Virus record (IMG/VR): IMGVR_UViG_3300048584_000005
Coordinates: 1 to 49,922 of that record
From: a virus
Length of the DNA stretch: 49,922 nucleotides
Reading direction: 5' to 3' (one strand)
The notes beneath the pieces are model-generated. The model saw nothing but the letters and a program-made list of their open reading frames with translations, was not told the DNA's origin and made no database searches. Position 1 is the first letter of the stretch; each line of letters starts with the position of its first letter. The translations under genes and the position numbers were made by a program. Shown piece after piece: positions 1 through 49,922 of this stretch.

Positions 1-418
1 AGGTGCCACCCCGCTTCGGCCTGAAGTTGAAGACGCCACCGTAGTCTTCAGCTTCTTCAAGGATTCCACGGTTGCCATGATAGCGAGTGCCGATGTCCTT
101 CAAAATTTCAGTGAGTGACTCAGCACACCTTTCGTTGACCCTTGTCCTCTTGACCAGCTTGCCATCATAGAACATGGGAAACGGGAAGTCAATCATAATC
201 AGACGGGACTCATCACCTGCTTCGCCGTAGAAGGCTCGGAGGCTTGCTTGGTCTTGCCGTGGCCAAGGGTTGACTTCAGGCATCATAGACCTCAGGTGAT
301 TCTGGCAGGCACGAATGGAGCGTGGTCCCCAGAAACCATCATCACAACCTTCCTGAAAGGCGGCTGGATAAGAGGCCTTGATGCGAAGCTGAGTGGCCTT
401 GATTTCTTGAGTGGTCAC
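1..418 (-). CDS. Endolysin, M15-type peptidase (allele A, C-terminus beyond window)
   Basis: This is the N-terminal 139 residues of a peptidoglycan hydrolase. The complete allele at 46486-47109 shows what is missing: the C-terminal M15 zinc-peptidase motifs. The N-terminal part carries the conserved GCDDGFWGPRSI segment, reminiscent of peptidoglycan-binding and endopeptidase enzymes of phages. I chose the GTG at 418 because it overlaps the holin stop codon as GTGA and because the complete allele also starts with GTG at the same junction. It would cleave host peptidoglycan once the holin opens the inner membrane. Truncation is by the window edge and not by mutation. The sequence differs from allele B mostly in the first 100 residues and is nearly identical after that. 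Confidence 0.85.
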   Translation of the reverse strand, partial: MTTQEIKATQLRIKASYPAAFQEGCDDGFWGPRSIRACQNHLRSMMPEVNPWPRQDQASLRAFYGEAGDESRLIMIDFPFPMFYDGKLVKRTRVNERCAESLTEILKDIGTRYHGNRGILEEAEDYGGVFNFRPKRGGT

Positions 419-870
419 TTGGTTGAATAGATGGGGATTTTGACAGGTCTCGCGGGTGGTGTGTAAAGGACAGACCCATCCTTGGCACTGCTGAATTCTC
501 CGTAGGGTGATTGAACGGACACACCCGCGCAACCACTCAGAGTCAGGATGTATCCAAGGACCGTTAGTGGGATCAGGAGTGGGATGATCACCGTGCTGAT
601 CTTGAAGCTGTCATTCTTGACTCCATCGTCAAGGTAGTCACCAATCAGCATCAGCAGTGGTTTCGCTCCTGCCGCGAACGTGGGACCAGCCACGACCAGC
701 CACGAGGCCACATCAGGCGGGACAAGTGCCAAGACCTGCAGGAAGTCGGCACCGCCGACAAAAGCGGCGAGCAGGCCAAGGAGTTGGAGTATGCGGATTG
801 TTTGGATGCGCCATAGCGGCACACCATAGGCTTTCAGTTCAGCAGGCACTAGGGTTGGATCATTGTTCAT
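415..870 (-). CDS. Holin-like membrane protein with lipobox-like C-terminal segment (allele A)
   Basis: This 151-residue protein has about three hydrophobic segments (roughly residues 25-50, 55-80 and 93-112), and its gene lies directly before the endolysin gene (GTGA overlap), so a holin role is likely. Unusually, the third hydrophobic segment ends in LSGC, a lipobox-like motif, followed by a short hydrophilic tail with a conserved VQSPYG motif. The allele at 47106-47549 has LPSC and VQSPYG at the same place. The tail resembles small phage lipoproteins found near lysis genes, so this may be a holin joined to a lipoprotein or spanin-like element. No internal Met separates the two parts. The leader is A/C-rich (CCACAAACCAACAAG) with no Shine-Dalgarno. 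Function is inferred from topology and position. Confidence 0.6.
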   Translation of the reverse strand: MNNDPTLVPAELKAYGVPLWRIQTIRILQLLGLLAAFVGGADFLQVLALVPPDVASWLVVAGPTFAAGAKPLLMLIGDYLDDGVKNDSFKISTVIIPLLIPLTVLGYILTLSGCAGVSVQSPYGEFSSAKDGSVLYTPPARPVKIPIYSTK

Positions 871-904
871 TTTCTTGTTGGTTTGTGGTTTCAGTTAGTA
901 GATT

Positions 905-2440
905 TTACGAAAGGTCACGCACCATCTTGATTGACACGGCACACTTCAAACGCTGAGTGTCAAGTTTCACGAATGGAGTGTTGAAGGTCAAACACCAATT
1001 GATGTATCCACTTGCTCCAGGTGGTGCGATCTGGGCGATGCGATTGTTCCCAGTTGAAGTTCCAGCGTTCCACGTGAATTCGCGTGTGTGGGTGAAGTCA
1101 TTTGAAGCTGACGCGCTTGTGATTACCTCTGCGCTTCTGGAGACTGATCCGGTGGTGTTTGCCAACCAGCTCGTCACCGCTGGTAGAGCTTTCTTGTTTG
1201 CTTCAGACAGCCATCCTGGAGAGTTCACGATTGCGCCGGAAGAAAACCCGTGTGTCCACCGTAAGTCAACACCTGGATCACCTCCAATGGTGGCTGTCGT
1301 GTCAACCGCTGGACCAGTGATTGTTGATGTGATGCGTGCCACACTGCTCGAAACCATGCTGGCAACGGTGGCAAGACCAAGATCATCAAAGTAGGTTGCG
1401 GGAGTGGCCAGACGGATGGTGCCACTTGCTCCCATTGCTCCAGGGTTGGCAGCGTCTGTGATGGTGATGGTGGTTGAGTTAGGCACGGTCGCAACCACGA
1501 ATGTTCCATTGTATCCTGCCAAGCTGGCACCTGCAATGATCACAGTGTCCGACACATTGAATCCATGAGCGACAGAAGTGATGATTGTAAGTGTGCTTGA
1601 GTTGGAGCTTGCTGAACTGATGTTGAACCTTCTTGGGATCACACCCCTCAAGTCCAGCTTGTCTCCTGCTAGGAAATGGGTCGCTCCAGTGAAAGTCACA
1701 TCTACGTTGGTGCCGTTCCCAACGATGGAAGTGATTGCATACTTGGTTGGGATACCACTTGCCTCTGCTCCCAAGTCGTAGTTCTGGATGCGATTTGAGT
1801 AGGTAGTGGTGATGGTGTAAGTGAATTGGATCTGGTCGTCAACTTCAATTGAAACCGGGGATGGCAGAACAATCCTTGCCACGCTACCAATCATGACGCT
1901 TCCCAAGGTGTAAGCTGAAGTCGCAGAATCAAAGGTTACAGTGCAACTTGAAATTGACGTTCCTGCCGTTAGGTCAACCGTCGGACTTGACGATCCTGCA
2001 GTCTTTGATTGGATAGAACCCGTTGACGTTACATTCGTCAACCAACGGCGGATTGTCTTGCCCGTGATAGTCCTTGCTGGACCGCTGACTGTGATCTGCG
2101 TGTCACTCACCCGCGTGACAACGTGGCACCTTTCACCGTCTTGCCATTGAAGCTCATTTCCGATTTGACTAGGTGACGATGGAAACGTGGCTGACCCGGT
2201 AGCTCTTGTCACGGTGTTTCCTGATTGACTCCAGGTGCCTCCAAGGTCTTCATAGTTCAAAGCGGTTGAGGTGAAGGTGAAACACGTTTGACTTCCAACC
2301 GTGGCAGGTGCTCCAGACCCGGAAAGCGGGCTGTTGAGCACGGTGTTCTTGATGCCTTTGAAAACCTCAATGACTTTGCCTTTGCGAATGATCCGCAGGT
2401 CCAGGGTTCCACCTACTCTTGCTTCTGTTTCAAATTTCAT
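905..2440 (-). CDS. Tail fibre / receptor-binding-like protein (allele A)
   Basis: This 511-residue beta-rich protein is full of Thr, Ser, Val and Gly. Residues around 230-350 hold a unit of the type 'VxDxVxIxGxxxxxYNGTFxVxxVxxxxTxTIT', a small beta module common in phage fibres and also seen in the tail tube protein here (7456-8634). It follows the minor tail gene with an ATGA overlap (2437-2440) and precedes the lysis genes. Compared with allele B (47582-49198, 538 residues), the centre (from the YDLGAEA segment to the GDPG segment) is highly conserved, while the first 200 residues and the C-terminal 100 differ strongly, as expected for receptor-contact parts. A role in host recognition is inferred; no known fibre family is recognised with certainty. 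Confidence 0.6.
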   Translation of the reverse strand: MKFETEARVGGTLDLRIIRKGKVIEVFKGIKNTVLNSPLSGSGAPATVGSQTCFTFTSTALNYEDLGGTWSQSGNTVTRATGSATFPSSPSQIGNELQWQDGERCHVVTRVSDTQITVSGPARTITGKTIRRWLTNVTSTGSIQSKTAGSSSPTVDLTAGTSISSCTVTFDSATSAYTLGSVMIGSVARIVLPSPVSIEVDDQIQFTYTITTTYSNRIQNYDLGAEASGIPTKYAITSIVGNGTNVDVTFTGATHFLAGDKLDLRGVIPRRFNISSASSNSSTLTIITSVAHGFNVSDTVIIAGASLAGYNGTFVVATVPNSTTITITDAANPGAMGASGTIRLATPATYFDDLGLATVASMVSSSVARITSTITGPAVDTTATIGGDPGVDLRWTHGFSSGAIVNSPGWLSEANKKALPAVTSWLANTTGSVSRSAEVITSASASNDFTHTREFTWNAGTSTGNNRIAQIAPPGASGYINWCLTFNTPFVKLDTQRLKCAVSIKMVRDLS

Positions 2441-3936
2441 GGGATGTCTAGTGTGATTGTGGCTTTAGGGAAAGTGGTTGAGATGTTCTCTGATCCCACG
2501 GCTCCAAGGTCTTCAAGGACAGTTTTGATTTCAAGAACTGCTTTCGGGAAAGTGGTTGGGATGTTCTCTGATCCAACTGTTCCAAGTGGTTTGACTACTG
2601 AAAGCAACGACAATACTGCTTTGGGGAAAGTAGTTGGGATGTTCTCTGATCCCACGGTGCCGATGTTCTTTAGGATGTCAATCAATTGCAAGTTTGCCTT
2701 GCCGAATTGCGGGCTCAGGTTTTCACTGAATGAACCCACATTCAGGATGAACGGTCCACGAGTGATGAGCACATTGCCAAGGCCAAGCACGGTGACCCCG
2801 AACTCAAGTGTCCGACTGTAGATGTGAAGACTGATGGTTTGCCCTTCAGCAGGATATACATTGAACATCTTGTATGCGTCACCAGCAAGTATCTTGCGAT
2901 TGGCATACACATTGACCGCTGGAGCGTAGTAGAGTGGATAGGGACGCTCACTACTGGGGATCACGGTTTGTGCAACCACTCGTTCAAGCTGAGCTGTGAC
3001 CTTGAAACGATTGTGTGGAACGTATGACTCATTGAACTTGCCACCAATGAAACGGACAGGGACGCTGAAGAACTGGCCATCAACAGGGAGTGTGATGAAG
3101 AAGTGCATGGCTCCACCCTGCAATGTGACATAGAAGAAATCTTGGAACTCTTGCAACTCATCAAGGCTCAATTCCCAGCTTGCTGAATATTTCCTGGTCG
3201 TGGTTTCAAACCGTGGCCACTGGCGAGTATGACCACTCTCCATCTCCAATCGCTCAGCTCCACGATTGGCGGTTTCGCTGAACTGGATATTGACTGATGG
3301 CAGGCCAGCGGGGAAACTTGGTGCCGTGTAAGTTGGGATCGGGTCAACATCTTGACTGGTGATTAGGACATCACCAGCTCCGAAGTTCTGGACACCGAAG
3401 TAGACCCACTGAGTTTCATCAGTTGGAGGTGGCACTCGGTAGGTCGTCAAACTGCCACTCCCAGGTCTTGCAATGAGTTGAGCGTTCCTGAATGAAAGTC
3501 CAAGTGTCTGGCTGAGGGCTTCATCAACCCTCATGCGGAACCAAGGTGCCACGGGAGGAGTCCGGCTTGGTGCCGCTGACGTTACGAACATGACTTCAAC
3601 AGTGGCACTGATAGAAAACCAGAAGGCTCCATCATGGCTGATGCGGTAGTCACCGCCGACAAACCTAGCAGGAACCTCTTCAAGTCCACCATCAACCGCC
3701 ATTGTCAATGCGAAGATGAGCTGTCCACCTGCCAAGGTTTCATTGAACCAATCTTCAAAGATGACGGTCTGTGCCTGTGAGAGCTTCCAGCTCAACTCAT
3801 ACGTGTCACGGCCTGTCGCAAACCTACCTTGTTGAATGAGCAGGCCAGTTTCTTGATCGGTGCGGATGACAGGTGTGACGGACTCACCTGTGAGGCTGTC
3901 CGTTGGCTGAGGTAGGTTGCTTGGATAGTCAATCAT
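2437..3936 (-). CDS. Minor tail protein with internal duplication and C-terminal repeats (allele A)
   Basis: This 499-residue protein follows the tape measure gene with an ATGA overlap (3933-3936). Two copies of one domain are visible. The first (about 45-120) contains YELSWKLS...FEDWF...LAGGQLIF...PARFVGGDYR. The second (about 240-330) contains YSASWELS...FQDFF...LQGGAMHF...PVRFIGGKFN. The C-terminus carries three 26-residue repeats with the core VGSENI(P/S)TTFPKA. Position and two-domain form suggest a distal-tail or tail-hub component between tape measure and fibre. Allele B keeps the second domain almost unchanged but has a different C-terminal repeat family. The exact tail role is inferred from gene order. 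Confidence 0.6.
   Translation of the reverse strand: MIDYPSNLPQPTDSLTGESVTPVIRTDQETGLLIQQGRFATGRDTYELSWKLSQAQTVIFEDWFNETLAGGQLIFALTMAVDGGLEEVPARFVGGDYRISHDGAFWFSISATVEVMFVTSAAPSRTPPVAPWFRMRVDEALSQTLGLSFRNAQLIARPGSGSLTTYRVPPPTDETQWVYFGVQNFGAGDVLITSQDVDPIPTYTAPSFPAGLPSVNIQFSETANRGAERLEMESGHTRQWPRFETTTRKYSASWELSLDELQEFQDFFYVTLQGGAMHFFITLPVDGQFFSVPVRFIGGKFNESYVPHNRFKVTAQLERVVAQTVIPSSERPYPLYYAPAVNVYANRKILAGDAYKMFNVYPAEGQTISLHIYSRTLEFGVTVLGLGNVLITRGPFILNVGSFSENLSPQFGKANLQLIDILKNIGTVGSENIPTTFPKAVLSLLSVVKPLGTVGSENIPTTFPKAVLEIKTVLEDLGAVGSENISTTFPKATITLDIP
2468..2700 (-). repeat. Three 78-bp tandem repeats in minor tail gene
   Basis: On the plus strand the unit starts GGGAAAGT(G/A)GTTG(A/G)GATG at 2468, 2546 and 2624, an exact 78-bp period (26 residues). 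Units are similar but not identical. The repeats encode the C-terminus of the minor tail protein. Allele B has four units with a 78-87 bp period at the same place but with another core (GTFYKP). Confidence 0.9.
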
Positions 3937-23647: not shown

Positions 23648-23773
23648 AACTTTCTTTCCTACTGCTTCCGTTGAATAGCGATCAAAAACCAATTTAGTTT
23701 CGCAAAGTGCTTTACAATCAATCAAGGTTTTTGGCATTCTAATCACGTTGCCAGTCGGCACCGCTACCACACC
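23648..23773 (+). promoter_or_regulatory. Composite promoter/leader cassette, copy 1
   Basis: Three blocks are shared with 27203-27325: 23648-23687 (40 bases, identical), 23696-23716 (ends GTGCTTTACA) and 23742-23773 (ATCACGTTGCCAGTCGGCAC onward). TTTACA (23711-23716) and CATTCT (23735-23740) are spaced 18 bases, sigma70-like. It follows the terminator and precedes the first of the small accessory genes. The spacer sequence is not conserved between copies while the blocks are, as expected for a promoter with a common 5' leader. Confidence 0.65.
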
Positions 23774-23779
23774 ACGACC

Positions 23780-23986
23780 ATGACAGCCACCATCTACCAC
23801 TTCACCGTCCGCCGCTCAGGCCTCACCACCCTGTCGCAGTTTGAAAACACCACCAACGGCAAGACCTCCCGTTTGGAAAGCTTCAAAATGACCGACGCTG
23901 AGTTTGCCGATTGGCTGGCACACACCCGCTCCAATGGCCACAAGGTTGACGTCAAGGTCAATGGCCAGCCTGCTTTCCTTGCTTGA
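23780..23986 (+). CDS. Small protein of unknown function
   Basis: This 68-residue protein starts right after a partial A/C-rich leader. It is the first gene after the promoter cassette. It looks like a small alpha/beta protein (MTATIYHFTVRRSGLTTLSQF; later TDAEFADWLAHTRSNGHKVDVKV). No family is recognised. Early promoter position and small size are typical of phage host-takeover or anti-defence genes, but this is inference. Confidence 0.6.
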   Translation: MTATIYHFTVRRSGLTTLSQFENTTNGKTSRLESFKMTDAEFADWLAHTRSNGHKVDVKVNGQPAFLA

Positions 23987-27202: not shown

Positions 27203-27325
27203 AACTTTCTTTCCTACTGCTTCCGTTGAATAGCGATCAAAACTAAAAAAGTTTCGCAAAGTGCTTTACACCTCCGGGGAGTGTGGTATTCTGATCACGT
27301 TGCCAGTCGGCACCGCTACCACACC
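27203..27325 (+). promoter_or_regulatory. Composite promoter/leader cassette, copy 2
   Basis: Same three blocks as 23648-23773: 27203-27242, 27250-27270 and 27294-27325. TTTACA (27265-27270) and TATTCT (27287-27292) are spaced 16 bases, a fair sigma70-like match. The spacer differs from copy 1 in length and sequence. It precedes the gene at 27363, which begins after a full A/C-rich leader. Confidence 0.7.
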
Positions 27326-27362
27326 TCAACTCCTACCACACACCACCAACCACACCACGACC

Positions 27363-34855: not shown

Positions 34856-36221
34856 AATCTATCAAGAGTTCGCAATCCAGCACTTGCTGGAAAACAAGCA
34901 CGCCGCTCTTTTCATGGGGATGGGACTTGGGAAAACCGCTTGCACCTTGGCAGCTACCAATGAACTCCTCTTTGACGCTGCCATACGCTCAATCCTTGTG
35001 GTCGCGCCGATTCGTGTGTGCAATCTCACATGGCCGAATGAGGTTGAGAAATGGGGACCGTTCAGTTGGATGAAGGTGGCCAATCTTAGGACTGAAGAAG
35101 GCATGAAACTCTATCATGACCGTGCCGCTCAAATCTACCTGATCAATTATGAACAGCTTCCCAAGTTTGAACAGCGAGTGCTCCAGACCGAGCGCAAGCG
35201 TCGCAAAGATCTGGCCTTTGATGTGGTAGTGTGGGATGAGATCAGCAAGGCCAAGAACCCCTCCAGTGTCAGGTGCAACGCGCTCCGCAAGCACTGGGAT
35301 ATCATTGATCGTCACTGGGGACTCACAGGCACACCCGCTCCAAACTCACAGATGGACCTCTTCGCTCAAATCCGCCTGCTTGATGGTGGCCAGCGGCTCG
35401 GCAAATCTTTCTTTGAGTTCCGCCGTGCATACTTCTATGCGATGGACCGTGATGAGCATGTCTGGGGAATACGCAAGAGTGAGAAGGACAAGCTGGAAGC
35501 GAAGATCGCTGACTTGGCACTTGTCCTGAAGAGCAGTGATTGGCTTGACATACCGGACACGGTCATTGAGGACATAGATGTTCCCATGCCAGTTGAAGTC
35601 CGCAAGATCTACAAGGAGTTTGCGAAAGAGCTCTATCTGTTGATCAATGGCACTGATGAACTCCAGGCGGCGAACGCGGCGGTCCTCGTCAACAAGTTGC
35701 TCCAAGTCACAAGTGGAGCCGTCTATGACCCGGAACGCAAGGTGATACACCTGCATGACGCCAAGATCAAAGCACTGGCCAGACTCATGAAGCGCAAGCA
35801 AGGTCCAATGATGGTGACCTACCAATATCAACATGAAAGAGCACGCATCAAGGAGGCATTTCCTCACGCTGTTCTATTCAGTGATGCCAAGAACCACATT
35901 CAACAGGACGAGCTCGCCAAGAAATGGAATCGCGGTGAGGTTGATCTACTCGTGGTCAGCCCGATGTCTGTCGGCCACGGCTTGAACATGCAAGAAGGTG
36001 GAAGTGAGATTTGTTGGTTCACCTTGCCATGGAGCCGCGAAATCTATGACCAGATGAATGCACGGGTGGCACGCAAGGGTCAAACCAAGACACCAATCGT
36101 CTATCGCCTGCTATCGCCAGAAACCATGGATGATGCCGTGGCGGAAGCGTTGAAAGGCAAAGGGGATCAGCAGTCCGCCCTCCTTGACACCATTGACAAT
36201 TTCCGCAAGATGGCTCATTAA
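34818..36221 (+). CDS. SNF2-family DNA helicase/translocase
   Basis: This 467-residue protein begins, from the ATG at 34818, with FNPEIYQEFAIQHLLE, the usual start of phage SNF2 helicases. Motif I is FMGMGLGKT, motif II is VVVWDEISKAK, motif III is GLTGTPAPN, motif V is SPMSVGHGLNMQEG and motif VI is QMNARVARKGQTK. It would translocate on dsDNA to remodel replication or recombination intermediates. An in-frame ATG at 34779 would extend it into the VRR-NUC gene by 13 residues; I consider this less likely. It closes the replication cassette before the modification operon. Confidence 0.93.
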   Translation: MTRSRSLSDFNPEIYQEFAIQHLLENKHAALFMGMGLGKTACTLAATNELLFDAAIRSILVVAPIRVCNLTWPNEVEKWGPFSWMKVANLRTEEGMKLYHDRAAQIYLINYEQLPKFEQRVLQTERKRRKDLAFDVVVWDEISKAKNPSSVRCNALRKHWDIIDRHWGLTGTPAPNSQMDLFAQIRLLDGGQRLGKSFFEFRRAYFYAMDRDEHVWGIRKSEKDKLEAKIADLALVLKSSDWLDIPDTVIEDIDVPMPVEVRKIYKEFAKELYLLINGTDELQAANAAVLVNKLLQVTSGAVYDPERKVIHLHDAKIKALARLMKRKQGPMMVTYQYQHERARIKEAFPHAVLFSDAKNHIQQDELAKKWNRGEVDLLVVSPMSVGHGLNMQEGGSEICWFTLPWSREIYDQMNARVARKGQTKTPIVYRLLSPETMDDAVAEALKGKGDQQSALLDTIDNFRKMAH

Positions 36222-36230
36222 GAATAATCA

Positions 36231-36238
36231 GCTTTACA
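36231..36238 (+). promoter_or_regulatory. GCTTTACA motif before modification operon
   Basis: The same octamer occurs in the promoter-like regions at 18685-18692, 23709-23716 and 27263-27270. Here it lies in the only gap (36222-36267) before the seven-gene modification operon, 30 bases before the ATG. No good -10 is seen at the usual spacing, so it may be a phage-specific promoter element. Confidence 0.4.
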
Positions 36239-36267
36239 TTCTATTCAAACTCCACACACTAACTCCC

Positions 36268-37278
36268 ATGTCCGAAATCTACCAATGTCCACCGCCGAAT
36301 GCCATTCAAATTGAGCCTGTTGAGGGTTGCTCCCTTGCTTGCTGGTTCTGTGCCTTGCAAGTGCTCCGTGACAACGGTGCCGACCGCGACAGTCAAACGC
36401 ATGGCAAGAGCTCCAGTCCGTATCTTTTCATGACTCTTGAAACCGCTGAGCGCATCGCCAGTGAAATCGCAAGAGCAGGCTGGATCCCACGCATTGAATT
36501 CGCCATGCACGGTGAACCAACCATGAGCAAGCAACTCCCGGCGATACTGGCCATCTTTCGCAAGCACAATCCCAAGGCCTCACTGATGGTGACCTGCAAT
36601 GGCGGCGGACTAACCACTGGCACCTTTGAAAAGATCCAGGCCATGTTTGACGCTGGCCTCAACAGCTTGGTCTTTGATGATTACAAGCACGCTGATTTCG
36701 TGCCGAAGATCCGGCCATTCCTTGCACTGCTTGACATGCCTGTCTATGAGTATCCATTGCAGAAGGATGAGGCCAATCCTCACCAGAAGTTCAATGGCAG
36801 GCGGGTCATCATTATCCAGGACATCAGCATCAACACCACTGGCTCGCACCAATTGAGCAACCAAGGCGGGTCAAGTGGCAGTCACAAGGAAAACATTCAG
36901 CGTCGGTGTGCCAAGCCGTTCCGTGAGCTGTCATTCCGCTGGGACGGAAACGTGGCCTTGTGCTGTGACGACTGGCCTGGGAAATACAAGATCGGGAACA
37001 TCCATGACATGCCGCTTGAGGAGCTATGGAACCATCCGCGATTTGATGCCGCTCGCCGGCGACTGTATCAAAAGGACAGGTCTTTCGGTCCTTGCAACGG
37101 ATGCACGGTCAAGACACCCCGGGATGGAATTCTTCCCGACAAACAAGGTGTTGATGAAATGCCTTTGCCTGATGCTGAAAGTCACAAGCACTTGGTTGAC
37201 GCCATGCGTGGCCAGCCATTCACGCCGCTCATCAAGCGGACCAAGTTCCAGTCAAGCCTCAATGACATGCTACAATGA
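36268..37278 (+). CDS. Radical SAM enzyme with SPASM-like C-terminus
   Basis: This 336-residue protein binds its radical-SAM cluster through Cys21, Cys25 and Cys28 (GCSLACWFCA). FAMHGEP is the S-adenosylmethionine amino-group (GGE-type) motif. The C-terminal part (about 210-290) has RRCAKPFRELSFRWDGNVALCCDDW and later GPCNGCTVKT, a SPASM/twitch-like set of cysteines that could hold an auxiliary cluster. It is the first gene of the modification operon and overlaps the first glycosyltransferase (ATGA). Radical SAM enzymes are known in pathways that rearrange hypermodified thymines, so acting on the modified base or its substituent is a reasonable inference; a sugar-modifying role is the alternative. 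Confidence 0.9.
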   Translation: MSEIYQCPPPNAIQIEPVEGCSLACWFCALQVLRDNGADRDSQTHGKSSSPYLFMTLETAERIASEIARAGWIPRIEFAMHGEPTMSKQLPAILAIFRKHNPKASLMVTCNGGGLTTGTFEKIQAMFDAGLNSLVFDDYKHADFVPKIRPFLALLDMPVYEYPLQKDEANPHQKFNGRRVIIIQDISINTTGSHQLSNQGGSSGSHKENIQRRCAKPFRELSFRWDGNVALCCDDWPGKYKIGNIHDMPLEELWNHPRFDAARRRLYQKDRSFGPCNGCTVKTPRDGILPDKQGVDEMPLPDAESHKHLVDAMRGQPFTPLIKRTKFQSSLNDMLQ

Positions 37279-38063
37279 ATGGACCAATCTACATCCCAAC
37301 GATGGGGCGGACAACGTGCCAGAAAACCCTGTTGAGCCTCCCAGATTGGATCCTTGACCACGTTGTCCTTGTGGCACCTGCCAAGGATGTCAAGGCACTG
37401 GAGCGCAACTTTGTCAAGGTGAAAGTCCTTTGCTGTCCATGCCATGGCATCGCAGCGACGAGATCCTGGCTCGTGGACAACTGTCCGGCTGAAGTATGCA
37501 CCATGATTGATGATGACCAAGTGTTCTTCAAGCGTATCGGTGACAGCATCAAGTTGGAAGCCATGAGCAAGGACGAGGTCGGTAAGATGATCGTTGAAAT
37601 GGAAGGCTTGACCATGCTCTACCCGATGGTCGGGCTCAGTGCGAGGCAAGGCAACAATCACATGGAGGAACCATACCTTCGCACCGCAAGCCGCGTTCAC
37701 AACCACTACGCTCTTGACTTGGCAGTTCTCCGCCGTGAGAACATCCGGTTTGACACCATGCAACTCATGGAGGACTTCTATGTCAACTTGCGATTGCTGT
37801 TCGCAGGATACGAAACCGCCAAGGTCGTTGACAGATGCTGGAATCAAAGCGAAAGCAACGCAAGCGGGGGATGTAGCTCCTACCGAAATGCTGAAATGCA
37901 AGAGCAGGCATCCAAGTTCCTGGCCAAGCAATTTCCCAGCGTGGTGACCGTCGTTGAAAAGAAAACGAAAGGTGGTTGGTTTGATGGTGGCATCCGATAC
38001 GATGTCCGCATCCAATGGAAGAAGGCTATGGAGCTTGGAAAACAAGGAGCATCAATTCTATGA
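37275..38063 (+). CDS. GT-A-type glycosyltransferase
   Basis: This 262-residue protein starts with PIYIPTMGR and contains HGIAATRSWL (about 58-66) and then the acidic metal-binding motif MIDDDQVFF (Asp79-Asp81). This is the layout of compact GT-A enzymes that use UDP-sugars, and resembles groups that occur beside hydroxymethylated-base enzymes. The middle (LYPMVGLSARQGNNHMEEPY) and the C-terminal region support a full single domain. It shares ATGA overlaps with both neighbours. The likely acceptor is a modified base in phage DNA, inferred from context. Transfer to a virion protein or host surface cannot be excluded. Confidence 0.82.
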   Translation: MNGPIYIPTMGRTTCQKTLLSLPDWILDHVVLVAPAKDVKALERNFVKVKVLCCPCHGIAATRSWLVDNCPAEVCTMIDDDQVFFKRIGDSIKLEAMSKDEVGKMIVEMEGLTMLYPMVGLSARQGNNHMEEPYLRTASRVHNHYALDLAVLRRENIRFDTMQLMEDFYVNLRLLFAGYETAKVVDRCWNQSESNASGGCSSYRNAEMQEQASKFLAKQFPSVVTVVEKKTKGGWFDGGIRYDVRIQWKKAMELGKQGASIL

Positions 38064-39088
38064 AAACTAAAATCGCGCTGTTCTACGCAAGAAAAGATGT
38101 TGGTGGCGGAAGCACATCATTCACAGTTCACCTCTATCGTGCCATGAAGATGGCTGGCATTGATGTGACCCTCTACCGCTTCCATGATGCCGCATCAAAG
38201 CCACGCAAGCCACGTGACCTCGCAAGCTATGTGGACACTCCTTGCCACTTCGTCACACCGAAGGAGGCCTTGGCAGTTGTCAAAAGCACTGCGAGCCTCC
38301 TTGTCGCACCTGAACATTCCAAACGACTGGTCCATGGTGTTGACTTGAAGCGGCTCATGGCTGAGGGGATGCGGATTGTTCTGCATGACCCTAACGAGTT
38401 CAAGGTCTTTGATCACCTTGATGAAAAGGAACTGGTCGTTGACCCGATCTGCATTCGGCCGACCATGCAACGGTTCTTCCCGAATGCCACCTTCATTCAC
38501 CACCCGTATGTCCGTGAGTTCACTGGCCATCAAGGTGGTGATCTTGAATTCAGGAAAGCCGCTGCCACCATTGCTCGCATCACATTCGTCAAGCGTCCAG
38601 AGATCCTGCTTGATGCGAATCGCCTTCTTGACACTGCCAACCGAATCGCATTCCACGGTGCTGAAAACAGGCTGTTCACTTTTGTCAAGTTCAAGGAGGA
38701 CTATCCTGAATTCAAGCAGGGTGGCCACAATCTGCCGATGGTCTGGGGAGCCAGTGCTCGCGCGATCAAGGATTATGCCATGATGATTGACATGACACAC
38801 TTCCCAGATGATGGAGGTGGCAGTCAATACACCTTCATGGAAGCGTGGGACGCGGGTGCCGTAGTGGTTGTCAACCGTGACTGGCTCCGGTTCCCAGGGG
38901 AAATGGTTGAGGGGGTCAATTGCTTGGCCATCAGCTCTGCAGACGAGCTGGCCGATCTTATCCGGAACCGGGACCAAGCTGGCCTGGAAACGGTGGCCAA
39001 GACTGCTGGACGATCGCTGGATGACCTCCATGACCCGATTTTGGTCGCAAAGCGGTATGCGTGGCACCTCACAGGTTCTTTTTTATGA
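38060..39088 (+). CDS. GT-B glycosyltransferase, T4 alpha-glucosyltransferase-like
   Basis: This 342-residue protein has a Rossmann N-terminal half that begins IALFYARKDVGGGSTSFTVHL, comparable with the T4 alpha-glucosyltransferase start (FMARGLEGCGVTKFSL). The C-terminal half has GGGSQYTFMEAWDAGAVVVV followed by NCLAISSADELADLI, the donor-binding pattern of GT4/GT-B enzymes, and LELGACGTIPV is the T4 counterpart. This argues for a DNA-base glucosyltransferase. It overlaps both neighbours by ATGA. It is encoded next to a second, differently folded glycosyltransferase, so the two may add successive sugars, or act on different acceptors. Confidence 0.82.
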   Translation: MKTKIALFYARKDVGGGSTSFTVHLYRAMKMAGIDVTLYRFHDAASKPRKPRDLASYVDTPCHFVTPKEALAVVKSTASLLVAPEHSKRLVHGVDLKRLMAEGMRIVLHDPNEFKVFDHLDEKELVVDPICIRPTMQRFFPNATFIHHPYVREFTGHQGGDLEFRKAAATIARITFVKRPEILLDANRLLDTANRIAFHGAENRLFTFVKFKEDYPEFKQGGHNLPMVWGASARAIKDYAMMIDMTHFPDDGGGSQYTFMEAWDAGAVVVVNRDWLRFPGEMVEGVNCLAISSADELADLIRNRDQAGLETVAKTAGRSLDDLHDPILVAKRYAWHLTGSFL

Positions 39089-39996
39089 AACCAATCGCAC
39101 AAATCAAGGATGTCAGGGAACGCTTTGTGGCGTTCATAATTGAGCGGGAGAACTGCCGCTTGGCAAAGGAGATGGGAATCTACCCGCATACGCAAGACCT
39201 GATCTTGCGGGTGAACCGTTTCTGCAATGTCAACCGGGAGCATGACGCTGTCACACGATGGGTGAAAACTCATGTCCGTGACCGGGATGACCTGAATCAC
39301 CGCCAGATGGTTTTGAACCTGCTCGTGGCACGCATCTTCAACAATCCAAACGCTATTCAGCACGTGATACCGTGCCACGACCTGGACCGTTGCGCCATCC
39401 GCCTGAATGCCATGCGGCGAGGTGGCCAGTCCGTCTTCCGTGGAGCATACATGATGGTCGTTCACGGGGATGCTGGAAAAGGCAAGAATGCGATTGACTT
39501 CTATTGCAACTTGGTGAAGAACGTGGACATGCTGGGAATCGGTGACAGGGTTGACAACCTTGCTTTCGTGGCTGACCTCATCAGCAGTGTCACGGGACTT
39601 GGACGATTCATGGCTAACCAGATTGTTACAGACTTGCGATACACCCGATTCTATCCTCCTGAAGCCACCAAGGACTGGGAGACGTTCTTGTGGTCCGGTC
39701 CAGGGACGTTGCGTGGTGTTCGCAGATACTACGGTCTTGACATAGACTCCGGCCGTGAACCGGATTTCATCAAAGGAACCTGCTTGACACACAAACAGGC
39801 ACCCGCTATCGTGCTCAGGTTGCGCGATGAGTTGCGTGGCCAGTTCCCAATAGAAATACAGAACCACTTCAAGGATCCCAACAATCTATCCAACTGCTTT
39901 TGTGAGTTTGACAAGTATGAACGTGTCCTTGGCATGGTGCCAAGCACTAAAGAACGGAAAGCCACCCTTAGAAAATACACACCAACGAAACCATGA
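39085..39996 (+). CDS. Thymine hypermodification protein, aGPT-PPlase / amino acid:DNA transferase-like
   Basis: This is a 303-residue protein. Residues 43-60 (VNRFCNVNREHDAVTRWV) fit the 'RFCNVxRExDxVTRW' signature of the alpha-glutamyl/putrescinyl-thymine pyrophosphorylase family and the related 5-hmdU DNA kinase helical domain. A glycosylase-like helix-hairpin-helix region follows at about 175-235 (SVTGLGRFMANQIVTDL; GPGTLRGVRRYYGLD). Members tested in hypermodified-thymine phages replace the pyrophosphate of 5-PPmdU in DNA with an amino acid. No P-loop kinase is fused or encoded nearby (its own GDAGKGKN lacks the Ser/Thr of a P-loop), so the leaving group or acceptor may differ here. ATGA overlaps on both sides put it in the same operon as the TS-like gene. 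Confidence 0.82.
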   Translation: MKPIAQIKDVRERFVAFIIERENCRLAKEMGIYPHTQDLILRVNRFCNVNREHDAVTRWVKTHVRDRDDLNHRQMVLNLLVARIFNNPNAIQHVIPCHDLDRCAIRLNAMRRGGQSVFRGAYMMVVHGDAGKGKNAIDFYCNLVKNVDMLGIGDRVDNLAFVADLISSVTGLGRFMANQIVTDLRYTRFYPPEATKDWETFLWSGPGTLRGVRRYYGLDIDSGREPDFIKGTCLTHKQAPAIVLRLRDELRGQFPIEIQNHFKDPNNLSNCFCEFDKYERVLGMVPSTKERKATLRKYTPTKP

Positions 39997-41048
39997 TCAC
40001 ACTGACAGCACGAAACCTCTATGACCTCACTCCACAGATGAGCGTCGCCTTTGATGAGCACGCATACAAGCGGACAAGCCGAAACGGCAAAGTTCAGCGG
40101 CTCCCAGGGTTGACGTCAATCTGCATCACACACCCGAAGGAGCATGTCTGCCTCTATGCGAAGCGGGATGCCAACCCTTTCTTTCACTTGATTGAAGCGA
40201 TGGCCATGCTCGCAGGCCGGAACAGCAATTCCCTTCTCAGCTTCTTGGCTTCAAACATGAGCAACTTCAGTGATGACCTAGTGCGATACAATGCGTTCTA
40301 TGGAGAACGGGCTCGTGTCAAATGGGGAGACCAGATCCGTTCTGTCATCCATGAGTTGCGTTGCAACCCGGACAGCCGTCAAGCAGTTGTCAATCTGTGG
40401 GATCCAACTGACCTGCTACGGCAGACAAAGGACAAGGCTTGCAACCTTTGCATGATTTTCAGCGTTGAGGATGGCGTGCTCCACATGACAACGTTCAACC
40501 GCTCAAATGATTGCGTCTGGGGATTTTTGACTGGAGCGAACATGGTTCACATGCCGTTCTTCATGGAATACGTGGCCAGCTCTCTTGGGATGTCAATGGG
40601 AAATTGGTATCACTGCTCAGCGAACATGCACATCTACGAATGGAACGAAAAGTGGCAGGCCATTGAGGAAGATCCCTTGTATGGCCTGGACCCCTATCAA
40701 GAGCGCGGTCTTAGGACCATGCCGCTCATGGTCACATCCGGTGAGGTGATTGGATTTGATCTTGAGCTTGACACCCTGCTTGACCAGATGTGTGGAGCGG
40801 TTGCCAACTTCAAGCGGGGATTTTCCCCTGTCTATGCGGTTGATGGAAGCACACCCGCGTTCATCAAGGATACAGTTCTTCCAATGTTCAACACGATCTG
40901 CCTCTACAAGAAAGCGCGTGAAGGAAAGGTTGAGGACTCCCAGGTCCGTGAAGAAGTGATGCCATGGGTCCGTTCTATCAAGGCGCAAGACTGGCAAGCT
41001 GCCGCTCGCTTGTGGCTTGACAACCGCTTGAAAGGAGTGCAAGCCTAA
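39993..41048 (+). CDS. Thymidylate synthase homologue, probable dUMP hydroxymethylase
   Basis: This 351-residue protein of the TS/hydroxymethylase fold has nucleophile Cys150 in KACNLC; the His after the Cys in classic TS (PCH) is Asn151. Glu68 in NPFFHLIEAMAMLAG matches E. coli Glu58. FNRSND (Arg170, Ser171, Asp173) matches RSCD. Asn183 in TGANMVH most likely matches E. coli Asn177, which selects dUMP; the dCMP enzymes have Asp. His213 and Tyr215 (NMHIYEW) complete the nucleotide site. With the downstream modification genes, 5-hydroxymethyl-dUMP is the expected product. ATGA overlap with the preceding gene. Simple dTMP synthesis is the alternative. Confidence 0.88.
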   Translation: MITLTARNLYDLTPQMSVAFDEHAYKRTSRNGKVQRLPGLTSICITHPKEHVCLYAKRDANPFFHLIEAMAMLAGRNSNSLLSFLASNMSNFSDDLVRYNAFYGERARVKWGDQIRSVIHELRCNPDSRQAVVNLWDPTDLLRQTKDKACNLCMIFSVEDGVLHMTTFNRSNDCVWGFLTGANMVHMPFFMEYVASSLGMSMGNWYHCSANMHIYEWNEKWQAIEEDPLYGLDPYQERGLRTMPLMVTSGEVIGFDLELDTLLDQMCGAVANFKRGFSPVYAVDGSTPAFIKDTVLPMFNTICLYKKAREGKVEDSQVREEVMPWVRSIKAQDWQAAARLWLDNRLKGVQA

Positions 41049-41051
41049 CTC

Positions 41052-41588
41052 ATGGACCACTCTCTTGAAGAAGAAATTCGGCGCATCAGCAACGTGATTG
41101 AAAGTGGTGAGGTCCAGCGGTTTCACGCCGTGCCATCCGTCCCGATGCAATCTGTCGCTCAGCACGCTTGGGGAGTTTCAGTGCTTTGCACGTTCATCAA
41201 AACGGATCCCCGTCCTGACATGATCATGTTCGCACTCTGCCACGACATGGAGGAGCTCTACACGGGTGACATCCCTTTCACCACGAAACGTGAAGTGACT
41301 GGTCTTAACGAGCTACTGGAAAAGGCTGAAGACGCGTGCCGAAAGGAACACCTGTTTGATCTGCCACGAATCACCAAGGCTGAAAAGGCTGTCATCAAGT
41401 TCGCTGACATGCTTGAAGGCTTGCGATGGACCATGATCTACGAACGTGGTGACAAGGTGGTTTGTCACCGCTGGCGTGCCGCCATCTGGGACATGATGCA
41501 CCATGAGGAGACGTTGCTTGCTCTAAGTGATGCCGAAATGCAACGTGTGAAAGCTCTGTTTGAAACCTATCTACCAACCATACAATGA
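41052..41588 (+). CDS. HD-domain 5'-deoxynucleotidase, YfbR-like
   Basis: This 178-residue HD phosphohydrolase has metal-binding residues His38 (VAQHAW), His64-Asp65 (LCHDMEELYTGDIP) and Asp119 (KFADMLEGL). An Arg-aromatic pair (Arg23-Phe24) resembles the Arg18-Trp19 pair of E. coli YfbR. YfbR-type enzymes remove phosphate from dNMPs. Encoded beside a hydroxymethylase, it may deplete dTMP or another canonical nucleotide so that the modified one is used in replication. It follows the TS-like gene by 3 bases and overlaps the next gene as ATGA. Confidence 0.88.
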   Translation: MDHSLEEEIRRISNVIESGEVQRFHAVPSVPMQSVAQHAWGVSVLCTFIKTDPRPDMIMFALCHDMEELYTGDIPFTTKREVTGLNELLEKAEDACRKEHLFDLPRITKAEKAVIKFADMLEGLRWTMIYERGDKVVCHRWRAAIWDMMHHEETLLALSDAEMQRVKALFETYLPTIQ

Positions 41589-42019
41589 AAGACGCATTGA
41601 AACGACAAGTCGGAGGAAGCCACTATCAAAGCAGTGGAGTCCAGCACGCTCAGTTCTGCCAAGCCAATAGAATCCCATGGTGTGAATCATCAGCGTTGAA
41701 ATACCTCACAAGACACCGCCGAAAGAATGGCAGGCAAGATCTTGAGAAGGCCAAGCACTATCTTGAAATCTGCTGTCACGAGGATTACCTTGTCAGGAAT
41801 GCCAACCCTGTCGGGATGTATCCCAAGAACTTCATGATCCCGCTGGCCACGTTCTTGAAAGACAATGCCGTGCCAGCGGCTGAGGCGGAAATCATGAAGC
41901 TGATTGTCAGTCACCAAGAGGTCCATGGAGAAAGCACTTTGTTGAATGCCATTCGCAAGATTGACACACTCATCAAGCACTATGATGATGAAACCCTTGG
42001 TGCTGACCTGCTTTTTTAA
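41585..42019 (+). CDS. DUF3310 (SaV-like) protein
   Basis: This is a 144-residue protein. The family signature is at the N-terminus: VGGSHYQ (residues 9-15), QFCQANRIPWCESSALKYLTRH and GRQDLEKAKHYLEI. DUF3310 proteins are widespread in phages and often lie next to nucleotide-metabolism genes; T7 gp1.7-like nucleotide kinases are in the same area of sequence space, so an enzymatic role on nucleotides is conceivable. The C-terminal 60 residues are helical. Its stop overlaps the stop of the convergent tail gene (42016-42019), with no terminator between them. Confidence 0.85.
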   Translation: MKDALKRQVGGSHYQSSGVQHAQFCQANRIPWCESSALKYLTRHRRKNGRQDLEKAKHYLEICCHEDYLVRNANPVGMYPKNFMIPLATFLKDNAVPAAEAEIMKLIVSHQEVHGESTLLNAIRKIDTLIKHYDDETLGADLLF

Positions 42020-46485: not shown

Positions 46486-47109
46486 CTAGCCTTTTGTCGC
46501 CTGGAAGTGCATCGCATCATATCCCCAGAAGGCACCTGCTGAGAGCCAGCCTTTGCGGGCGAAGCACTCCATGATTTCCAACGGCATGTCCGCCACCATT
46601 GGCCAAGAGTCGCGGAAGGTATTGTCATCGGCATCCAGGTCTATTGCAGCTCCATAGGCATGGCAGCTCCAAGAGGTGCCACCCCGCTTCGGCCTGAAGT
46701 TGAAGACGCCACCGTAGTCTTCAGCTTCTTCAAGGATTCCACGGTTGCCATGATAGCGAGTGCCAATGTCCTTCAAAATTCCAGTGAGTGACTCAGCACA
46801 CTTGCGGTGGACGCGTGTCCGGGTCACCCGCTTGCCATCATAGAAGGTGGGATAGGGAAACTCAATGAACACAAGTTGACTTTCGTCTCCAGGCTCTCCA
46901 TAGAACTTTCTGAGGCTCATCTGGTCTGGAGCAGGCCACGGGTTGACCGCTGGCATCATGGATCGCAGGTGGAGCTGACAGGCGGCGATGCTCCTCGGTC
47001 CCCAGAAGCCATCGTCACACCCATCCCGGAACTTGAGTGGGTAGGAGTTGCGGATGCGCTGTTGCATCGCCACAATGCGGTTCGTCCGCTGAAGGTTGGT
47101 TTCGCTCAC
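46486..47109 (-). CDS. Endolysin, M15-type zinc peptidase (allele B)
   Basis: This 207-residue protein is the complete version of the enzyme truncated at the left edge. The catalytic domain is C-terminal: His150 and Asp157 in SCHAYGAAIDLD match the SxHxxGxAxD zinc motif of M15 peptidases, and His201 in YDAMHF matches the third zinc ligand. The N-terminal 60 residues contain CDDGFWGPRSIAACQ, a peptidoglycan-binding-like unit. It probably cuts L-Ala-D-Glu or D-Ala bonds of the stem peptide. It starts with GTG overlapping the holin stop as GTGA. Endolysin, holin and a spanin-like gene form the lysis cassette, embedded between fibre and tail-tip genes on the circular map. Confidence 0.9.
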   Translation of the reverse strand: MSETNLQRTNRIVAMQQRIRNSYPLKFRDGCDDGFWGPRSIAACQLHLRSMMPAVNPWPAPDQMSLRKFYGEPGDESQLVFIEFPYPTFYDGKRVTRTRVHRKCAESLTGILKDIGTRYHGNRGILEEAEDYGGVFNFRPKRGGTSWSCHAYGAAIDLDADDNTFRDSWPMVADMPLEIMECFARKGWLSAGAFWGYDAMHFQATKG

Positions 47110-47549
47110 TTGCTTGAGTAGTTAGGAATGAAGATGGGGGAGGAAGGTGGTGTGTAGAGCATACCACCCTTGGATGAGCTCAAGCTGCCGTAGGGTGATT
47201 GAACGGTGAGGCCTTGGCAGCTTGGCAAAAGCAGTGAAGCGAGTCCAGCTACTAACAGCAAGATCGGGAGCTGGTCCACCTTGAAGCTGTTGTTCTTGAT
47301 ACCGTCATCAACGTAGTCGCCGATCAGCATGACGATAGGCTTTGCGGACGTGGCAAGGGCTGGACCCGAGATCATCAACCACTTGGCTGTCTCCGCAGGG
47401 AAGAAAGCTAACAGGTTAAGGAAATCCGCTCCACCGATGAAGGTCATGATGATCCCCAGGATGTAGAGGACACGGATGATTTGTGAGCGCCATAACGGAG
47501 GGCCGAAACTGACGAGTTCTGCTTGGACTTGGACGGGTTCGTTTTTCAT
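47106..47549 (-). CDS. Holin-like membrane protein with lipobox-like C-terminal segment (allele B)
   Basis: This 147-residue protein starts at ATG 47549 (MKNEPVQVQ), behind ACACCAACAAAAGAAAACAG; the open frame continues 12 codons upstream but without a leader. It has the same organisation as allele A: hydrophobic segments around 25-45, 52-75 and 92-107, the lipobox-like LPSC and then the conserved VQSPYG and YTPPSSP tail. The first two segments are well conserved (FIGGADFLNLLAFFP versus FVGGADFLQVLALVP), while the third differs fully, so the third segment seems to be needed only as hydrophobic sequence. Confidence 0.6.
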   Translation of the reverse strand: MKNEPVQVQAELVSFGPPLWRSQIIRVLYILGIIMTFIGGADFLNLLAFFPAETAKWLMISGPALATSAKPIVMLIGDYVDDGIKNNSFKVDQLPILLLVAGLASLLLPSCQGLTVQSPYGSLSSSKGGMLYTPPSSPIFIPNYSSK

Positions 47550-47581
47550 GGTTCTGTTTTCTTTTGTTGGTGTTAGGAGAA

Positions 47582-49198
47582 TCAAAGGCCAGTCAAGTCA
47601 AGGGCTCTTACGGCCTGCTTTGAAAAGCTGATTGTCAGGCGTTGAGTGGTAGCCTTGCCAAAAGGTGTATTGAAGGTGACTTGATGAGAGACGCCATTGC
47701 CACCTGAAGCAGAATAGATCTGCTTCAACCTTGTGATGTTAGTCCCCGCTCCGGCGTTCTTTCGCAGATACTTGACGAGAGTGAAATCTGAAGAGAAAGT
47801 GGCTGCCACGTTTGAAGGTGCGGTGTCATTCATAGACCAAGTTGACCCGGTTGTTACGAGTGCTCCTGTTCCTGTTACGTCTGCCAGTGCTTTCGCGTTG
47901 GCTTCATTGAAAACGTAGGAGGAAGAACCAGAGGAAAGCATCTCAAAAGGAGCATTGACGCCGTTCCTGCGAAGGCGGTATTCACAACCTGGATCACCAC
48001 CTAACAAAGTAGAGGTGTCAACCGCTGGTCCAGTGATTGCTGAAGTGATTCGTGCCACACTGGTAGAAACCATGCTTGCGATCGTGGCCAAGCCGAGGTC
48101 ATCAAAGTAGGTTCCAGGTGTTGCAAGGCGAATCGTGCCGCTGGCACCCATTGCTCCAGGGTTGGCAGCGTCTGTGATGGTGATGGTGTCTGTATCAACC
48201 ACCGTGGCGACCGTGAACGTTCCATTGTAGCCTGCCAAGCTGGCACCCTCAATCACAACGGAGTCACTAACGGACAAGCCGTGAGCGGCAGTGGTATTGA
48301 TGGTGAAGGTGGTGGAGTTGGATGAGGCGGAGCTGATGGCAAACCTACGGGGAACCACACCTCTCAAGTCCAGCTTGTCACCTGCTAGGAAGTGCGTCGC
48401 TCCAGTGAAGGTGACATCCACGTTCGTGCCATTCCCCACAATTGAAGTGAGGGCATACTTTGTCGGGATGCCTGTTGCTTCTGCTCCCAGATCATAAGTT
48501 TGTGAACGGCCAGAAACAGTTTCTTGCACTTCATACTCAAAAACGATCTGGTCTTCTGCATCAATAGCGATTGTTGATGGCAGCAATACCCGAGAGCAGT
48601 TAGGGAAGATGAAAGATCCCAAAGTGTAGGCTGAAGCGGCAGAGTTGAAGTTCACACGGACACGGCGAATCCAAGTGTTAGAGGTGTCTGAGATTGTAGT
48701 AGAAAGGACCGTGATACTGGCAGAGGTTTGAATAGAACCTGTCGTGCTGGAAGCTCCGCTTGCATTGACTGAAAACCTGCGGATCCTTCCCCCGGTGATG
48801 GTCTTAGCCACACCCGTCACCGTGATGGAAGTGTCACTCGCTCTTGCGCTTACGTGGCAACGGTGGCCAGTGTTACCTCCAGCGCTAAACCAATAGAGTT
48901 CATCTCCGATTTTTGAAGGAGAGCTGGGAAAAGTCCCGCTCCCTGTCGCACGTGTAACCGTGTTCCCGCTTTGGTTCCAAGTGCCATCCAGGTCTTCATA
49001 GTTAGGAGTCGTTGAAGTCATCGCATGGCAGGCTGTCGCGGTGGTAGTAGTCCAAGTGGGGCAAGCCTCAATGTTCAAACCTGCATTCAAAATGATGTTA
49101 GGGACATTCTCCATCCGGGTCTTCAAGCTGCCATCTTTTCGGCGGACTTCAAGCCATAGGATCTTTCCGGAAATTTCTGATGTATGTTCAAAGTTCAT
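47582..49198 (-). CDS. Tail fibre / receptor-binding-like protein (allele B)
   Basis: This is a 538-residue protein. The centre, including the GAxLAGYNGTFTVATV unit and the YDLGAEATGIPTKYA segment, is nearly the same as in allele A, and the N-terminal 150 and C-terminal 130 residues are different. It has three or more beta modules and many Thr and Ser. It is preceded by the minor tail gene (ATGA overlap at 49195-49198) and followed by the holin-like gene. A receptor-binding role is likely given its position and variability. Confidence 0.6.
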   Translation of the reverse strand: MNFEHTSEISGKILWLEVRRKDGSLKTRMENVPNIILNAGLNIEACPTWTTTTATACHAMTSTTPNYEDLDGTWNQSGNTVTRATGSGTFPSSPSKIGDELYWFSAGGNTGHRCHVSARASDTSITVTGVAKTITGGRIRRFSVNASGASSTTGSIQTSASITVLSTTISDTSNTWIRRVRVNFNSAASAYTLGSFIFPNCSRVLLPSTIAIDAEDQIVFEYEVQETVSGRSQTYDLGAEATGIPTKYALTSIVGNGTNVDVTFTGATHFLAGDKLDLRGVVPRRFAISSASSNSTTFTINTTAAHGLSVSDSVVIEGASLAGYNGTFTVATVVDTDTITITDAANPGAMGASGTIRLATPGTYFDDLGLATIASMVSTSVARITSAITGPAVDTSTLLGGDPGCEYRLRRNGVNAPFEMLSSGSSSYVFNEANAKALADVTGTGALVTTGSTWSMNDTAPSNVAATFSSDFTLVKYLRKNAGAGTNITRLKQIYSASGGNGVSHQVTFNTPFGKATTQRLTISFSKQAVRALDLTGL

Positions 49199-49922
49199 GG
49201 TATGACGAGTTCAATTGTTGGTTTGTAGAAGGTGCCAGTGGTTGCATCATTGGGAACTGTTACGAGAGCGCTGACATCAACTAGCACCTCTAGAATCTCA
49301 ACGACAGGCTTGTAGAAGGTGCCTGCCAAGGTTTCAGGTGTTAGAGTGCCGATGTCTCTTTCGGTAGACTTCAATTCAACGACAGGCTTGTAGAAGGTAC
49401 CAGATACTTCATCGGCTGTTAGCATTCCAATATCTCTGATGGTGTCACGTAGCTCAAGAGTCGGTTTGAAAAACACTCCCTGCAAAGGCTCAACGAAAGT
49501 GCCGATGTCCAGGACAAACGGTCCCCGGGTTATGAGCACGTTGCCAAGCCCTTTTACGGTGATGCCTATCTCAAAAGTCCTTGCATAGATGTGAAGGCTG
49601 ATGGTCTGACCTTCTGCCGGATAGACCTCAAACATTTTCAATTGATCAGCATCAACTATCTTTCTGTTGGCATACACGGCCACGGTTGGGGCGTAGTAGA
49701 GTGGATAGGGACGCTCACTGCTAGGGATCACAGTTTGTGCAACCACTCGTTCAAGCTGAGCTGTAACCTTGAAACGATTGTGTGGAACGTATGATTCATT
49801 GAACTTGCCACCAATGAAACGGACAGGGACGCTGAAGAACTGGCCATCAACAGGGAGTGTGATGAAGAAGTGCATGGCTCCACCCTGCAATGTGACATAG
49901 AAGAAATCTTGGAACTCTTGCA
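49195..49922 (-). CDS. Minor tail protein (allele B, N-terminus beyond window)
   Basis: This is the C-terminal 241 residues of the allele of 2437-3936. The second domain (GGAMHFFITLPVDGQFF, then VPVRFIGGKFN) is almost identical to allele A up to about the YAP(T/A)V segment. After that it diverges, and the C-terminus is built of four repeats with the core GTFYKP(V/T)(V/I)E, where allele A has TTFPKA repeats. The reading frame stays open through the right edge of the window, so the gene is cut and not broken. Confidence 0.7.
   Translation of the reverse strand, partial: QEFQDFFYVTLQGGAMHFFITLPVDGQFFSVPVRFIGGKFNESYVPHNRFKVTAQLERVVAQTVIPSSERPYPLYYAPTVAVYANRKIVDADQLKMFEVYPAEGQTISLHIYARTFEIGITVKGLGNVLITRGPFVLDIGTFVEPLQGVFFKPTLELRDTIRDIGMLTADEVSGTFYKPVVELKSTERDIGTLTPETLAGTFYKPVVEILEVLVDVSALVTVPNDATTGTFYKPTIELVIP
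49220..49479 (-). repeat. Four tandem repeats in minor tail gene (allele B)
   Basis: On the plus strand the unit core GG(T/C)TTG(T/A)A(G/A)AA begins at 49220, 49307, 49385 and 49463, with spacings of 87, 78 and 78 bases. The 78-base period is the same as in allele A (2468-2700) though the coded repeat differs. One unit carries three extra codons. Confidence 0.85.

Follow-up and report, generated by a model that had tools for sequence, protein, structure and literature searches.

Are the two versions of a fibre and lysis gene block that stand at the two ends of a viral contig neighbours in one molecule, or alleles of one locus that belong to two phage strains and were brought together by the assembler? 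The question is raised by the window, i.e. the whole stretch of 49,922 nucleotides analysed here (IMG/VR record IMGVR_UViG_3300048584_000005), in which positions 1-3155 (hereafter allele A) have a counterpart at 46674-49922 (allele B). The initial annotation had taken them for alleles of one locus in two strains that differ in lysis and fibre genes, and this is supported by the shape of a k=127 graph modelled on it, by the single-copy state of the locus in relatives and by an intact gene formed upon joining the ends. We consider it very probable (roughly 0.91) that the end repeat is an assembly effect, caused by the co-existence of two strains of a 46.8-kb, circularly mapping phage that differ in their fibre/lysis blocks. 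Outside the duplicated block, the window is a complete-looking tailed phage, with minus-strand genes for terminase, portal, scaffold, capsid, connectors and tape measure, and plus-strand genes for primase, exonuclease, single-strand binding protein, DNA polymerase and helicase; no tRNA genes were found in it.

The duplicated block comprises four minus-strand genes: one for an endolysin, one for a small membrane protein of holin-like character, one for a fibre-like protein, and that part of a fourth which encodes the C-terminal portion of a 499-aa tail protein; all four were found in both copies, and a gene count taken at face value doubles them, as had been pointed out earlier. The endolysin of allele A (2-532) is cut at the contig start, leaving an open frame of 177 aa that matches PHROG 17001 (endolysin, E 3e-10), while that of allele B (46486-47109, 207 aa) matches the same PHROG and the Peptidase_M15_4 family (PF13539). 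The small membrane proteins (415-870, 151 aa, in allele A; 47106-47585 in allele B) are 54% identical to each other and gave no match in family and PHROG searches; a holin-like role is suggested by the place of the gene and by hydrophobic stretches. The fibre-like proteins are homologous: that of allele A (905-2440, 511 aa) matches PHROG 9998, and that of allele B (47582-49198, 538 aa) matches PHROG 9998 as well as the PHROG 4176 tail fibre family (E 1e-4). The 499-aa tail/virion structural protein (PHROG 384) is encoded at 2437-3936 in its allele A form, with 3029-3936 on the side of the shared backbone, and the C-terminal part of its allele B form lies at 49195-49922, open at the contig end. 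In both alleles (2462-2661; 49298-49401), as in relatives (L008, L009), the C-terminus of this protein is a series of repeats, each about 26 aa long, whose sequence differs between A and B.

The two copies are collinear and on the same strand, with blocks of about 79% identity (1-353/46674-47026), about 78% (1271-1773/47987-48489) and 87% (2743-3155/49510-49922). The terminal 127 bases (49796-49922) equal 3029-3155 exactly, and the base just before the match is C in one copy and T in the other; outside these 127 bases global alignment gives 63% identity. Both the diverged repetition and the exact match with a mismatch directly before it, as described in the initial annotation, are thereby confirmed. 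No longer suffix of the window recurs in it, and a scan with k=127 revealed 3029/49796 as its sole repeated 127-mer. So many exact bases beside sequence of 75-80% identity far exceed what would be expected by chance (about 0.8^127, roughly 5e-13). The contig end is an exact repeat of the maxK type, of length k and with a mismatch on its outer side, as expected of an assembly-generated end overlap. The left edge converges too: positions 1-91 are identical to 46674-46764 and identity drops afterwards, so that the divergent patch is flanked by identical sequence on both sides, for no fewer than 127 bases on one and 91 on the other, the flanks of strain A being visible over those stretches only.

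Within the patch, reading frames are open throughout both copies, with dS of 0.85-2.1 and dN of 0.23-0.44 between A and B; the divergence of the two versions is therefore old and has proceeded under purifying selection. These values bear on an explanation that we find hardly credible, namely that the contig is a chimera, in which a fragment of another, less related phage was joined at a short conserved stretch, so that allele A would not come from a strain with the same backbone. The visible shared edges are indeed just 127 and 91 bases long, and A and B are 44-60% identical in many 100-base windows. However, both edges of the patch are perfectly identical despite the high dS between them, which points to a recent shared backbone on both sides, and the GC content of the two sequences is nearly equal (51.1% and 51.4%).

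The two-strain explanation accounts for the way in which the contig is written. When a circle (3156-49922, with allele B) and a side branch (1-3155, allele A) are entered into a k=127 graph, it shows a single branching vertex (3029), with two entries and one exit, and one dead end, at position 1. A walk that follows the branch, then the circle, and halts upon meeting the vertex again yields exactly the written contig. We considered a clean bubble at both ends and rejected it: the left match spans 91 bases and not 127, so the left end is a drop-out, with the dead end lying 36 bases short of any 127-mer that A could share with B.

The closure of the circle joins 3936-3156 to 49922-49195 into an uninterrupted allele B gene of 502 aa and brings together one operon in the order tape measure, 499-aa protein, fibre, holin-like protein, lysin, three small tail genes and J-like protein. 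The earlier estimate of a circular or permuted genome of about 46.7 kb agrees well with the 46,767 bp of the closed allele B strain (3156-49922), with the intact gene and with the gene order of four relatives. Closure restores intact genes and an operon order known from relatives, and the genome is circularly mapping, a property common to circular, permuted and cohesive-ended linear genomes; together with the graph and the closed relatives, it suggests that 3156-49922 is the complete map of the allele B strain and that the genome is probably complete.

Relatives of the window were detected at the protein level, via the J-like protein and a small tail protein; among phage records there were none at the DNA level. 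Four of them (IMGVR_UViG_3300036945_000541, IMGVR_UViG_3300049919_000065, IMGVR_UViG_3300043449_001145 and IMGVR_UViG_3300040801_004733; G001, G002, G003 and G005, respectively) cover, in one contig each, the tape-measure gene, the J-like gene and the locus between them, crossing the join of the window. They exhibit the same gene order, with mostly 40-80% protein identity at the locus, and each carries the cassette in a single copy, with one 499-aa gene and one fibre gene. The lysins of G001 and G002 are of types other than that of the window, whereas G005 (which carries L029) has the same type, in one copy. The contig of G003 (44,832 bp) has its first 127 bases identical to its last 127 bases; it thus closes to a 44,705-bp circle and is an instance of a 127-base end overlap within the viral collection. 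G001 (45,393 bp), to which L008 and L021 belong, closes by an exact overlap of 116 bases that rejoins the tape-measure gene intact. The closure (L008 1-139 and L021 13278-13393), to about 45,254 bp, falls in a glycine-rich stretch of that gene and is obscured by the G run with which the contig starts, probably a sequencing artefact. The closed genomes of the relatives (44.7-45.3 kb) and their gene order are consistent with the 46.8 kb of the window circle and with one cassette per genome. Exact probes of 31-33 bases from the lysin edge, from a fibre stretch common to both alleles and from the 127-base match identified no other contig of this species in the viral collection, from which very near records may be missing, and the 499-aa protein used there as a pattern-search query gave no match. 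A search of host genomes returned distant matches only (36% in a Polaromonas MAG, 32% in Caballeronia), insufficient to settle the host.

The arrangement in the relatives has to be set against a true tandem duplication, in which both cassettes would be present in one molecule, and the interior between them would be missing from the assembly as an exact repeat; this interior would consist of the end of lysin A and the stretch that encodes the N-terminal part of another 499-aa protein. We regard it as improbable: the second copy occurs in none of the four relatives that span the locus, and the reading would require a second breakpoint that the contig passes unbroken, as well as a coverage drop-out at position 1 in an otherwise well-covered genome. 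The open reading frames in both copies are what a duplication would leave. Trees of six tips, made for the fibre, the holin-like protein and the C-terminal part of the 499-aa protein, bear on the same issue from both sides. In the fibre tree L008 is the partner of B (support 0.94) and L029 that of A (support 0.96), and because they side with different relatives the two copies are not fresh duplicates; the holin-like protein of A is likewise closer to L029 (70% identity) than to B, so that for these two proteins the copies are not each other's closest relatives. In the C-terminal part of the 499-aa protein they are: A and B are sisters there (61% identity, support 0.996), as a duplication predicts. 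This sisterhood is neutral to slightly adverse for the two-strain explanation; it is ambiguous, since it is expected near a recombination edge in a shared gene, and a local duplication would give the same.

According to the two-strain explanation, the sample would have contained two or more strains of a tailed phage whose genome maps circularly and measures about 46.8 kb. The strains would be identical at either edge of a cassette of some 3 kb, and presumably in the remaining backbone as well. Each strain would carry its own long-diverged version of the cassette, which comprises the C-terminal part of the tail protein, the fibre, the holin-like protein and most of the endolysin, and which was presumably swapped in by homologous recombination, with edges within conserved parts of genes. 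Since both strains would have the same tail-protein sequence from 3029 onwards, an assembler with a maximum k of 127 would merge their paths there and write the allele A side branch (1-3155), then the shared circle, and stop after allele B at the same 127-mer. Strain A would be the less abundant one, as suggested by a branch that ends 36 bases before a shared 127-mer, and the dead end at position 1 would fit a thinly covered minor strain. We infer that recombination between co-occurring strains exchanged the block from the tail-protein C-terminus to the lysin, which is the best-supported origin of the two versions. The cassette includes genes of the host-recognition kind, i.e. the PHROG 4176 tail fibre of allele B and the PHROG 384 tail/virion protein, and a receptor role of these products is suggested by their families. 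Judging from the kind of genes, and by analogy with marine metaviromic islands, the exchange may alter host recognition or host range. A more elaborate possibility, that the two divergent cassettes stand in tandem as a reserve for switching host recognition via recombination at their identical edges, is likewise improbable. The exchange between strains would be an ordinary phenomenon, the swapping of fibre and lysis genes being a common route of phage variation.

Both sides of the two-strain explanation have counterparts in the literature. According to the work on COBRA, contigs from metaSPAdes and MEGAHIT overlap at their ends by maxK bases where repeats occur, and false joins can stem from strain variants (PMC10914622). 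The window resembles these cases in the exact k-base overlap where paths meet and in strain variants as the probable source, but its last bases match an internal position, and a comparison of contig start with contig end misses the closure because the 3-kb side branch precedes the circle. In metaviromic islands of marine phages, co-existing variants with different tail-fibre genes share a backbone (PMC3909814); the variation of host-recognition genes on a shared backbone is the same, whereas the window holds both variants in one contig and has lysis genes within the exchanged block. It would thus add to the cases in which co-occurring phage strains have exchanged fibre and lysis genes jointly. 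If it were annotated at face value, its length would be wrongly taken as 49.9 kb rather than 46.8 kb, four genes too many would be counted, a tandem duplication would be recorded in error, and the probable completeness of the genome would be overlooked. A general test of contigs, in which the last k bases are compared with internal positions, would recover complete genomes that are missed by comparison of start and end.

Two further regions of the window deserve mention. Between 23755 and 28304, the plus strand has eight exact copies of ACCACACCACGACNATG (0.04 expected by chance), most of which sit in a longer leader, ACCACCAACCACACCACGACNATGA. The copies of ACCACACCACGACNATG end in ATG codons at which early genes seem to start, with no clear Shine-Dalgarno sequence; a shortened version of the motif does not occur in the relatives G001, G003 and L024. 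Possibly, ACCACACCACGACNATG and ACCACCAACCACACCACGACNATGA represent a shared leader for the start of transcription or translation. A pair of repeats of about 150 bases (23648-23800 and 27203-27353), 82% identical, 3.55 kb apart and with the first 40 bases identical, stands upstream of two of these leaders. Finally, the plus strand at 36184-42019 encodes a radical SAM/SPASM protein, a TET-associated glycosyltransferase (TAGT), a 5-hmdU DNA kinase and a thymidylate-synthase homologue, together with an HD nucleotidase-like protein and a putative nucleotide kinase, and is likely to be a DNA hypermodification cluster.
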